Source of the DNA: Candidatus Krumholzibacteriia bacterium
GTDB taxonomy: Bacteria; Krumholzibacteriota; Krumholzibacteriia; JAJRXK01
Assembly (NCBI GenBank): GCA_035268685.1
Contig: DATFKK010000039.1
Location: 1-38,814, forward strand
Length of the DNA: 38,814 nucleotides
Reading direction: 5' to 3'
A program made the translations under genes and the position numbers. Positions within the stretch are counted from its first letter, which is position 1, and each line of letters opens with the position of its first letter. Positions 31,110 to 34,201 of the stretch are shown piece by piece. The notes beneath the pieces are model-generated. The model searched no databases and was not told the DNA's origin. It was given only the letters and a program-made list of their open reading frames with translations.

Positions 31110-32189
31110 ATGACCCGACGCCCCGCACACAGCCTGCGGGCCGTGCTGGCCCGATGCATGGGACTCCCCGGCGCCCAACCCTGGGTCGATGCCGCGACGA
31201 TCGAACTCGCGACGTCCCTGGGACTTGCCGCGGTCACCGCCCACGCCGTGACGACGGGCGCCGCACGCGCCGGTGCCGGTGGGCGTTGGACCGAACGTCT
31301 GGTTCGCGCCGCGGCCCGGGAACAGGCCCTCGTGCTCGCGAGCGAGGACGAGGCGTCGCGCGTGGTCGCACGGTTGCACGGCGCGGGCATCCCGAGCATC
31401 GCGCTCAAGGGGCTGGCCTCGAACGCCGTGGTGCACGCCCCGCACGGCTGGTGCCGCGCACCCGGCGACGTCGACCTGCTCGTGCCCGGGTCCCGTGCGG
31501 ACGAAGCCCGCGCCCTCTTCGCCGCAGACCCCGCCTACGCGGCCGTGGAGGACCTCGAGGCGGAGTTCTACGAGAACCACCACCACCTGCAACCCTTCGT
31601 GCGGCGCGATCGTGCCGCGACGCCGATCGAACTCCACCGCCGGATCTCCGGCGTGACCACCGGCGACGTCCGGATCGACCACGAGGGTTGTTGGGCCCGC
31701 GCCGTTGCCCATCCGTCGCTCGGACCGGGCGCGCTGCGCCTCGACGACGTCGACCAGTGCCTCGCCACGATCATCCACATCGACCGTGACGACGCCTACA
31801 TGCGCCGCGCACGTCAACTCCTGGACCTGGCCCTGTGGTGGGAACGCTGCGCGGACCGCCGCGAAGATCTCTGGGCCCGCGCCGAACGGTGGAACGCCAC
31901 GTCGACGGTCGAGCGCGCGCTGACCGTTCTGGACGCCTTCCTGGGCGGATCAAGGACGACTGGACGCCACGACGCCACGGCACCGAGCCGCGGGACCCGC
32001 CTGTGGCGAATGCTGGCCCTGGATTCGGTGACCTTCGCCGATCGCCGATCCGTGTTCCCCGGCTGGTACCGGAATGCGGTGCTTCGCGCATTGATCCACG
32101 AACAGGACCCGGGGAGGGTCCTGTCGCGGATCGTTCGCCCTGTTCTCGGAGGCCCGCCCTGGGACCGAGGCGAGCCGGGCGCTGCCTAG
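31110..32189 (+). CDS. NTP_transf_5-family nucleotidyltransferase
   Basis: The 359-residue protein matches the uncharacterised nucleotidyltransferases found in lasso-peptide and HPr-rel-A clusters. GIPSIALKGLASNAVVHAP is followed by CRAPGDVDLLVPG, placing the catalytic Asp pair at 120 and 122. YENHHHLQPFVRRDRAATPIELHRRISG holds further conserved His residues. DRDDAYMRRARQLLDLALW follows. It begins 10 bp after the NTF2 gene, so it may be co-transcribed with the B12 regulator. Its stop overlaps the stop of the opposing 45-residue peptide gene (CTAG, 32186-32189). Its likely substrate is an adjacent peptide or small molecule; this is inferred. Confidence 0.82.
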   Translation: MTRRPAHSLRAVLARCMGLPGAQPWVDAATIELATSLGLAAVTAHAVTTGAARAGAGGRWTERLVRAAAREQALVLASEDEASRVVARLHGAGIPSIALKGLASNAVVHAPHGWCRAPGDVDLLVPGSRADEARALFAADPAYAAVEDLEAEFYENHHHLQPFVRRDRAATPIELHRRISGVTTGDVRIDHEGCWARAVAHPSLGPGALRLDDVDQCLATIIHIDRDDAYMRRARQLLDLALWWERCADRREDLWARAERWNATSTVERALTVLDAFLGGSRTTGRHDATAPSRGTRLWRMLALDSVTFADRRSVFPGWYRNAVLRALIHEQDPGRVLSRIVRPVLGGPPWDRGEPGAA

Positions 32190-32323
32190 GGCATGTGCCA
32201 GAAGAGCTTACGCCCTTCTCGCGAACCGGACCCACTGGCGTCGAAACCGGTGTAGAGGGTGATCTCCTTGAGATCCTCGCGCGCAATGATGGCGGGTGTC
32301 TCGTAGGTCTTCTTCGGCTGCAT
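32186..32323 (-). CDS. Candidate RiPP precursor peptide with lasso-type leader
   Basis: This 45-residue peptide, MQPKKTYETPAI..., lies in the same-strand cluster with B1, B2 and kinase genes. AGGAG stands eight bases before ATG 32323. The leader holds Tyr7-x-x-Pro10 and Ile12, and Thr22 falls at the same distance from that Pro as the conserved Thr(-2) of lasso leaders (12 residues in lariatin). That puts the core start at Tyr24. The core then reads YTGFDASGSGS, continues REGRK and ends LFWHMP. Asp/Glu occur at core positions 5 and 13 only, not 7-9, so the classical lasso ring is not predicted. Ser30, 32 and 34 are candidate kinase sites. It may be another peptide class; as a gene it is well supported by its ribosome site and context. 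Confidence 0.7.
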   Translation of the reverse strand: MQPKKTYETPAIIAREDLKEITLYTGFDASGSGSREGRKLFWHMP

Positions 32324-32460: not shown

Positions 32461-33468
32461 TTACAGTCGTGTCGCAGGTTTCCCGTCGGCCCCGCCGGCG
32501 GACGCCCCCGCGAGAGCACACAGGCGATCCGTGGCCTCCACGAGGTCCGCGCCGACGAGGAGCCGGTGGCACGCAGCGGTCTCGCAGACTCCCGCCAGCA
32601 GATCGAACTGGCGCCGCGACGTAGCGCGCTCGCTGGGCACGAGACTCTGCTTGAGCAGTCGGCTGAGCGCGTCGCTTGGTGAAAGTCCATCGCAAATCGA
32701 CGTGTCGGCATCGTGGATCCGGGGGAACACGATCCACCGGACGCGTGCCGTTTCGACGGGAGTGAGCCCCTCGACGGCGTGCACGGGCAAGAACCACTTC
32801 CCGGCACCGGCTCGACGCTCCGCGCGCGACCTCGACGCCGGCGGCAGCAGGGCCTCGAGCGTGGGGTCGGTGAGGTGCAGCGGCGACCAGCGCGCCCCGA
32901 CCACCGGCACGCTCTCGTCCCCAGCGCCGTCGAGATAGCAGGTGTCATCGCCCAGGAATCCCCATCCCCGGAGGGCCATGGCGAGGCTCAGGGTGGTCTT
33001 CCCGGAACCCGACGCACCGCACAGGAGCATGGCGTCGCCGCCGGCCGTGACGGCCCCCGCGTGGACGGAATACAGGGAGCGTGCCTTCAGCAGCTCCACC
33101 ACCACCGGATCGAGCAGTCGGTGTCCCGGGAGCCAGGCGTGCGCCTCCACACCCTCGTCGAGGTGGACCCTGGCGGTACCGGTCTCGGGCTCGACCCTGG
33201 CCCATCCCACGCCGTCGGACTCGATCACCAGGGCTCCGTCCGTCGCGGCGGAGAAGCGCGTCCCGTCGGCGGCCACACCGAGCGAAGCACCGCGCGGGGG
33301 CTTCGCGGTGCCGAGGCCGTGCGCGATCTCGATCTCGAGATCCGGTGCCTCCGGTCCGCCGGGCGCACGATGGGCCGCAAAGATCTCGTCGAGCACTCTC
33401 GCCGAGCCCTCGTCGCGTGCGGTGACGGCGAGGCGTCGACCGTGGATCCGGTAGTCGCATCGATTCAC
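32461..33468 (-). CDS. HPr kinase-like serine kinase of a lasso/HPr-rel-type cluster
   Basis: The 335-residue protein has an HPrK/P-type fold. LYSVHAGAVTAGGDAMLLCGASGSGKTTLSLAMA supplies a conserved His near 136 and a Walker A loop (151-158), and WGFLGDDTCYL gives the following Asp pair near 174-175. In lasso clusters such kinases (PadeK type) phosphorylate the C-terminal Ser of the precursor; here the peptide ends in Pro, so an internal Ser/Thr is the candidate. HprK-related kinases also occur with PqqD-like proteins in exopolysaccharide-linked HPr-rel systems. The GTG start overlaps the B2 stop (GTGA). Confidence 0.85.
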   Translation of the reverse strand: MNRCDYRIHGRRLAVTARDEGSARVLDEIFAAHRAPGGPEAPDLEIEIAHGLGTAKPPRGASLGVAADGTRFSAATDGALVIESDGVGWARVEPETGTARVHLDEGVEAHAWLPGHRLLDPVVVELLKARSLYSVHAGAVTAGGDAMLLCGASGSGKTTLSLAMALRGWGFLGDDTCYLDGAGDESVPVVGARWSPLHLTDPTLEALLPPASRSRAERRAGAGKWFLPVHAVEGLTPVETARVRWIVFPRIHDADTSICDGLSPSDALSRLLKQSLVPSERATSRRQFDLLAGVCETAACHRLLVGADLVEATDRLCALAGASAGGADGKPATRL

Positions 33469-33863
33469 GGCAGTCGCTCCCCTTCACGCGCCGGAGTGCG
33501 CAGGAATTCCTCGTAGTCCTCGGTCTTGCCCTCGGGTTCTCCGAAGGGCGCTCCATCGATCTCGACCCAGGCGTGTCCCCGCTCCAGATGCCCGCGGAAC
33601 CGGACCCCGATCACGAGATCGGCGTCGTGTCCGTGATGGCGGAGCATGCGCGCCAGGCCGTAGGCACGTACGAGACAGGCGTCGCCCCGAAGGCGTCCGA
33701 GTGCTCGGCGGTAGGCACGGTGCACCGCCGCCGCAGACGCCCGGCGCCGTCCGGGAGACGTCGCGTCGAGACTCGACACGATCTCGCGGGCGCTCGAGCG
33801 GGCCACCCGTCGGCGGGCGCCCCACAGGTGCCAGAGTGCCTCGAGTTCGAGCATCAGACGCAA
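33465..33863 (-). CDS. Lasso B2-type transglutaminase-fold leader peptidase
   Basis: The 132-residue protein matches lasso peptide biosynthesis B2 proteins, which are cysteine proteases of transglutaminase fold that remove the leader. ALWHLWGARRRVARSSA opens it. The triad is Cys63 (GDACLVRAYGLARMLR), His97 (ERGHAWVEIDG) and Asp103. GVRFRGHLERGHAWVE is close to the family consensus. The start is TTG 33863 with AGGG about eight bases upstream; ATG 33854 is an alternative without a ribosome site. It is coupled to the kinase by a GTGA overlap and follows the RRE gene by 35 bp. Confidence 0.85.
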   Translation of the reverse strand: MRLMLELEALWHLWGARRRVARSSAREIVSSLDATSPGRRRASAAAVHRAYRRALGRLRGDACLVRAYGLARMLRHHGHDADLVIGVRFRGHLERGHAWVEIDGAPFGEPEGKTEDYEEFLRTPAREGERLP

Positions 33864-33898: not shown

Positions 33899-34201
33899 TC
33901 AGATCTCGAAGAGACCCTCGGCGAGCATGGTCTCGGCGAAATTGACCGTGTCACGCCGCGCCGTGTCCTCGTCGACGTCGAAGGCATCCATGACCGCAGC
34001 CACGATCTCGTCCACGGTCCGGCGCCCGTCGGCTGCGTTCCAGATCAGGGAACCGACGGGATTCAGCGTGGAGTACACGCTCGAGTCCAGGTTGAGGATC
34101 ACCACGTGATCGTCCAGCTCACGCCAGTGCGCACGCGCAGACCGGCGAGGTCGTGACTGTGGTCCCACCTTCGTCGACTTCGTGCCTCCGTCATCGACCA
34201 C
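33899..34201 (-). CDS. PqqD-like RiPP recognition element (lasso B1-type)
   Basis: The 100-residue protein is a PqqD-fold RiPP recognition element. WRELDDHVVILNLDSSVYSTLNPVGSLIWNAADGRRTVDEIV shows the winged-helix pattern and LNxxGxxIW motif, and the tail ends ETMLAEGLFEI. Such proteins bind leader peptides and deliver them to modifying enzymes. The start is GTG 34201 with GGGGAG six bases upstream. It is the first gene of the leftward run RRE-B2-kinase-peptide and has its own promoter. In HPr-rel-A systems a PqqD-family protein also partners the kinase; the B2 neighbour tilts the call toward a lasso-derived set. Confidence 0.83.
   Translation of the reverse strand: MVDDGGTKSTKVGPQSRPRRSARAHWRELDDHVVILNLDSSVYSTLNPVGSLIWNAADGRRTVDEIVAAVMDAFDVDEDTARRDTVNFAETMLAEGLFEI

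Follow-up and report, generated by a model that had tools for sequence, protein, structure and literature searches.

A conserved lasso-type leader on a non-lasso core: a candidate linear phosphopeptide route outside the Bacillota

The locus described here raises the question of what a leader peptide of the lasso type may serve when the core attached to it appears unable to form a lasso ring. A leader of this type, a discrete RRE and a B2 leader peptidase are commonly read as marks of lasso peptides. All three are found in the window, as we call the whole analysed stretch of 38,814 nucleotides from a Candidatus Krumholzibacteriia bacterium, the leader having the features YxxPx[LVI]...T(-2), and two further lasso features, a macrolactam cyclase and an Asp or Glu at core positions 7-9, are missing from it.

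The precursor is a 45 aa ORF with homologues in related genomes (32189..32323, reverse strand; MQPKKTYETPAIIAREDLKEITLYTGFDASGSGSREGRKLFWHMP), which is closed by a TAG stop at 32186-32188. Its ATG is preceded at eight bases by an AGGAG (GACGCCAGGAGTTGTACAG-ATG), a clear Shine-Dalgarno site. The CTAG palindrome at 32186-32189 is common to the stops, both TAG, of the precursor and of a convergent NTP_transf_5 gene, so that the 3' ends of these genes overlap. A six-frame search of the window gave a single match to the pattern Y..P.[VILMA].....L...T, against an average of 0.07 over 200 triplet shuffles. A profile built from two sequences, the window peptide and one relative from genome G013, recovered homologues with E-values of 3e-11 to 8e-8 in three genomes outside the seed, and the ORF is therefore considered conserved. 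Weak matches, below cut-off, were obtained between the precursor and NCBIfam lasso_cyano and Pfam DUF5972, the latter of which we take to be a family of lasso precursors. On sequence grounds, a lasso-register leader is genuinely paired with a non-lasso core, and the pairing is conserved.

The register of the leader (residues 1-23; 32255..32323, reverse strand; Y7xxP10xI12...L18...T22 L23) is identical to that of lasso and LPP leaders (PMC13381572, PMC10368454). Residues Y7, P10, I12, L18 and T22 correspond to the register Y1-P4-[VIL]6-L12-T16, which places the start of the core at Tyr24, and the claim of an initial sequence-only reading that the leader is in exact lasso register is borne out by Y7xxP10xI12...T22. 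The core so delimited, YTGFDASGSGSREGRKLFWHMP (residues 24-45; 32189..32254, reverse strand), carries Asp5 and Glu13 as its acidic residues and S-G-S at positions 7-9, as expected from the same reading, and it ends in Pro, in agreement with the proposal that a C-terminal Ser for a PadeK-type kinase is lacking.

Five other genomes (G009, G013, G028, G033 and G080) together yielded eleven relatives of the window peptide. Among 80 genomes of the same phylum, the two-sequence profile had significant hits in G009, G013, G028 and G033, and no others were convincing. Relatives of B2 occur in three of the 80 besides the window genome (G009, G013 and G033; 4/80 in all), and same-leader peptides are present in each of the four phylum genomes holding this kind of B2 and in one more genome. 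When the seed genomes are left out, the peptide is found in 2/2 genomes with B2 versus 1/76 without (hypergeometric 3/3003, ~0.001). Numbered from the leader Tyr, all 12 peptides have Y1, P4, L12, T16 and Ser or Thr at position 19, with Tyr, Leu or Phe at position 18 and a Phe one to three residues past position 19. The conserved core feature is thus [YLF]-[ST]-x(0-2)-F within the first three to five core residues, which indicates Thr25 (core position 2; 32249..32251, reverse strand) as the predicted phospho-acceptor in a register equal to that of Ser3 in the LPPs (PMC13381572). The earlier suggestion that an internal Ser or Thr is modified gains support from this position as the likely target. 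Core position 2 is uniform within each genome, being Ser in all peptides of G013 (three), G033 (two) and G028 (one) and Thr in those of G009 (two), the window (one) and G080 (three). Within-peptide shuffling of the cores, with a single peptide taken from each of the six genomes, put the chance of Ser/Thr at position 19 in all of them at ~1e-4, a figure that serves as a guide only since the peptides are related. In the alignment of cores, where the sequence-only reading had proposed to look for conserved Ser, Gly and Trp positions, the Ser/Gly stretch, the Trp and the LFWHMP tail are not conserved, and both the stretch and LFWHMP are ruled out as a conserved core motif.

In lasso register, the sibling cores read LSFSPPIR, LSFSPPVS and LSFSPPGR in G013, LSFSPPESTYDIDKQ and YSSFMPPGWKHRHGNE in G033, LSFTPPGE in G028, FTNFGPPS and YTDVFSYGDPAPGSGHGGGRRVRDSR in G009, and YTF three times in G080. 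Eight of the 12 peptides have cores of 3-8 residues, for which a lasso ring is impossible. Acids at core 7-9, which had been named as speaking against the non-lasso view, are met sporadically: Glu7 in one G033 core and Asp9 in one G009 core, both among the longer ones, and Glu8 as the last residue of the eight-residue G028 core. The two longer cores count against the pathway proposed below. The three together do not rescue a lasso assignment, because most sibling cores are so short and G009 is without a lasso cyclase match at the cut-off given below. Several window-type precursors (L061, L062, L063 and L065) adjoin genes for large exported proteins, apart from the enzymes.

Three enzyme genes lie on the same strand as the precursor. 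The discrete RRE of the PqqD family (33902..34201, reverse strand; PF05402, E 4e-19) is similar to TbiB1 (5v1u) and LppB (9x8z). In LppB, the residues N33, V35, D70, F74, M78 and L83 hold the leader, and these align with N47, V49, D84, F88, M92 and L97 of the window RRE, among them the Asp by which LppB holds the leader Tyr. The B2 leader peptidase (Transglut_core3; 33468..33854, reverse strand; PF13471, E 6e-19; NF033537 above cut-off) is the only B2 of the window genome. Its Cys and His are conserved and are kept in the relatives. In the window, G009, G013, G033 and G080, a Glu stands at His+12, presumably in the role of the third catalytic residue (Asp194 in McjB). The HprK-like kinase (32464..33468, reverse strand) matches TIGR04352 with E 7.9e-16, below cut-off, and displays the H-15-GxxGxGK-17-DD spacing of BsfK. 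Kinases of the window and its relatives all keep the H, GxxGxGK[ST] and DD, and the spacings from H to G of 15 (16 in G080) and from K to D of 17 are those of BsfK H148-G163 and K169-D186. The window kinase scores far under the NCBIfam cut-offs, which counts against the pathway proposed below. The P-loop (window 32464-33468; L011, L013, L014, L061 and L064) reads GKS in the three Ser-type genomes and GKT in the three Thr-type ones, a split that may reflect kinship only; in the kinase tree the Ser-type kinases form a supported clade and the Thr-type kinases are not resolved. A scan of the genome contigs with the kinase returned only two loci, one being an ordinary lasso cluster (L012). PDB searches with the kinase and with B2, and a plasmid search with the kinase, gave no match. 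The convergent gene is the NTP_transf_5 nucleotidyltransferase (31110..32189, forward strand; PF14907, E 8e-23). No exporter was found at the window locus with the ABC genes of the relatives as queries.

The leader, RRE and B2 are all of lasso type. A true lasso might be restored if the cyclase were encoded elsewhere in the genome, or had dropped out of the draft assembly of 202 contigs, and if Asp5 or Glu13 took the unusual role of ring acceptor. The draft state of the genome likewise counts against the pathway proposed below. As the sequence-only reading had noted, no cyclase is present in the window, and none of the four proteins of the genome that match the Asn_synthase family is convincing. 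These are an AsnB with an N-terminal Cys (C173), an NAD synthase (C28), a QueC-like protein (C54) and a GATase-less AsnB-like protein of 550 aa on another contig (C129; L002 1411-3063), between beta-propeller and Nudix genes. This last protein gives the lasso explanation some footing, but it has no match to the lasso cyclase model and no RiPP neighbours; by comparison, L012, the ordinary lasso cluster, has a cyclase that matches that model at 3e-52. Two better lasso-cyclase-like matches exist elsewhere in G080. However, no cyclase adjoins the locus of any relative (G009, G013, G028, G033 or G080), a search of the whole 97% complete G009 genome gave no match to the lasso cyclase at E <= 1e-5, and rings of 7-9 residues are impossible in the window core as in most of the sibling cores. 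A true lasso is thus very unlikely. Loss of the cyclase could also have left a decayed, non-functional lasso cluster, as its absence and the patchy spread of B2 in the phylum might suggest. Against this stand the intact motifs and open frames of all the enzymes and the recurrence of the cyclase-less set, together with multiple precursors in a genome, across several genera and in other phyla, so that decay is highly improbable.

The register, the set of genes, the missing cyclase, the Ser/Thr conservation, the kinase motif and the RRE pocket, all read from the sequence, are consistent with the precursor of a linear phosphorylated RiPP, which we regard as the probable product of this locus. The RRE would bind the YxxPxI leader and hand the peptide over for phosphorylation of Thr25, three residues past the leader Thr, by the HprK-like kinase. 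The nucleotidyltransferase would probably add a further group onto the phosphate, and B2 would cut after Leu23 to leave a 22-residue linear core in which no macrolactam ring is made.

Such a modification is not without precedent, since LppK puts several phosphates on the Ser at position 19 (Ser3, three residues past the leader Thr) of the cyclase-less LPPs (PMC13381572). Against the LPP motif YxxPxVLxHQxIxFETxxS in the same register, the window peptide has Y1, P4 and T16 exact and I6, I7, L12 and T19 conservative, and the window relatives also share V6, H9 and Ser19. The locus shares with the LPPs a discrete RRE, an HprK-like kinase and an NTP transferase without a cyclase, as well as the Y1xxP4...T16 leader followed by a hydroxyl residue at position 19. 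The LPPs, however, are cut after T16 by a SipW-like signal peptidase and are restricted to the Bacillota according to Popov et al. 2026 (PMC13381572), whereas the window has the transglutaminase-like B2 and no MsbA-like exporter, its group lies outside the Bacillota, and the cores of the group often have only 3-8 residues. A SipW-like signal peptidase (TIGR02228) was not matched in the window genome (G000), G009, G028 or G033. The Ser of the LPP site is replaced by Thr in the window. LppK accepts Ser and not Thr (PMC13381572), and BsfK, which phosphorylates the lasso core Ser3 (position 20 in the Y1 register) and accepts Thr there, acts one residue further and spares Thr2 (PMC10368454); both observations count against phosphorylation of Thr25.

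The Bsf system of phosphorylated lasso peptides has an RRE, B2, nucleotidyltransferase and HprK-like kinase with the same motif spacing, and BsfK is stimulated by the RRE (PMC10368454; Duan et al. 2023), but it differs in its cyclase, Gly1, Asp8 and Ile(-2) and in its phospho-site at core residue 3. Paeninodin and pseudomycoidin likewise employ RRE and B2, with kinase and nucleotidyltransferase tailoring a Ser hydroxyl, but there the C-terminal Ser is modified and a lasso ring is formed, whereas the window core lacks a ring acceptor and has Pro as its last residue. Since the nucleotidyltransferase of pseudomycoidin is linked to the addition of a hexose on the phosphate (PMC8498205), and NTP_transf_5 genes are present at the window, G009, G013, G033 and G080 loci, the main leader-guided step could be one in which the nucleotidyltransferase attaches a sugar phosphate or a nucleotide to the core while the kinase has a different substrate. 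We consider this unlikely, as the kinase precedes the nucleotidyltransferase step in known cases and deletion of lppK abolished phosphorylation while that of lppN had no detectable effect (PMC13381572). The window peptide is neither an LPP as defined, on account of its leader peptidase, nor a lasso peptide, on account of cyclase and ring acceptor. The best reading of the system is an LPP-like route to linear phosphopeptides outside the Bacillota, in which B2 would replace the SipW-like enzyme.

The gene set recurs in varied order in the relatives. G009 has RRE-B2-HprK-ABC ATPase-permease and a nucleotidyltransferase; G033 has peptide-RRE-HprK with B2-NTase-ABC-permease on the opposite strand; G013 has B2-NTase-ABC-permease, two peptides and RRE-HprK; G028 has peptide-RRE-HprK, with B2 not found; and G080, of the Acidimicrobiia, has RRE-B2-HprK, a nucleotidyltransferase and three peptides ending LTRYTF. 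Several of 396 sampled Actinomycetota genomes encode between one and seven peptides that join the leader to other cores, e.g. FECSNWSCSVTVPPAP or KGVPNGNSNNVG. B2 was found in 8/10 Actinomycetota genomes examined for it, mostly in an HprK-RRE-B2 operon with no cyclase within the region read. Among 398 Pseudomonadota genomes, the peptide profile found one (G523), which has RRE-B2-HprK. Cyclase-less HprK-RRE-B2 loci are present in two phyla other than that of the window. Among precursors of other phyla that accompany similar enzymes, position 19 is mostly occupied by Cys or by residues other than Ser and Thr. The architecture of leader plus enzymes is consequently broader than the proposed phospho-site, which is not universal, and this too counts against the pathway.

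Other peptide groups were seen in these genomes. In the Actinomycetota (L074, L098, L099, L104 and L114), up to seven scattered same-leader peptides have the core C-x2-W-x-C-S-V-x-V-P and are often encoded 3' of large, exported proteins that resemble beta-propellers, with a second HprK-like kinase close by. A further group, YQKPELTEHENLNEVTKG..., occurs in tandem copies (L079, L080, L107 and L142; G196 and G431), and G431 has RRE-B2-HprK-NTase without a cyclase. Three tandem precursors, MTKKTYQKPTLTKREKLEDITA..., are found in G523 (L115 and L143), with the RRE-B2-HprK set and a nucleotidyltransferase elsewhere on the same contig.

We found no description of B2-containing cyclase-less clusters in the open-access literature. 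We propose, tentatively, that cyclase-less RiPPs processed by B2 form a widespread, undescribed class, present in at least three phyla besides the Bacillota, in which one RRE-B2-HprK set may serve several scattered precursors and yield very short linear phosphopeptides, from about three residues up, with the nucleotidyltransferase adding a group to the phosphate. The system described here would itself extend the idea of the LPPs past the Bacillota with a different leader peptidase, and the single Thr or Ser pinpointed here makes the kinase target directly testable. Since leader, RRE and B2 of the lasso type serve non-lasso cores in this group, a lasso prediction based on nothing but these genes would be mistaken here.
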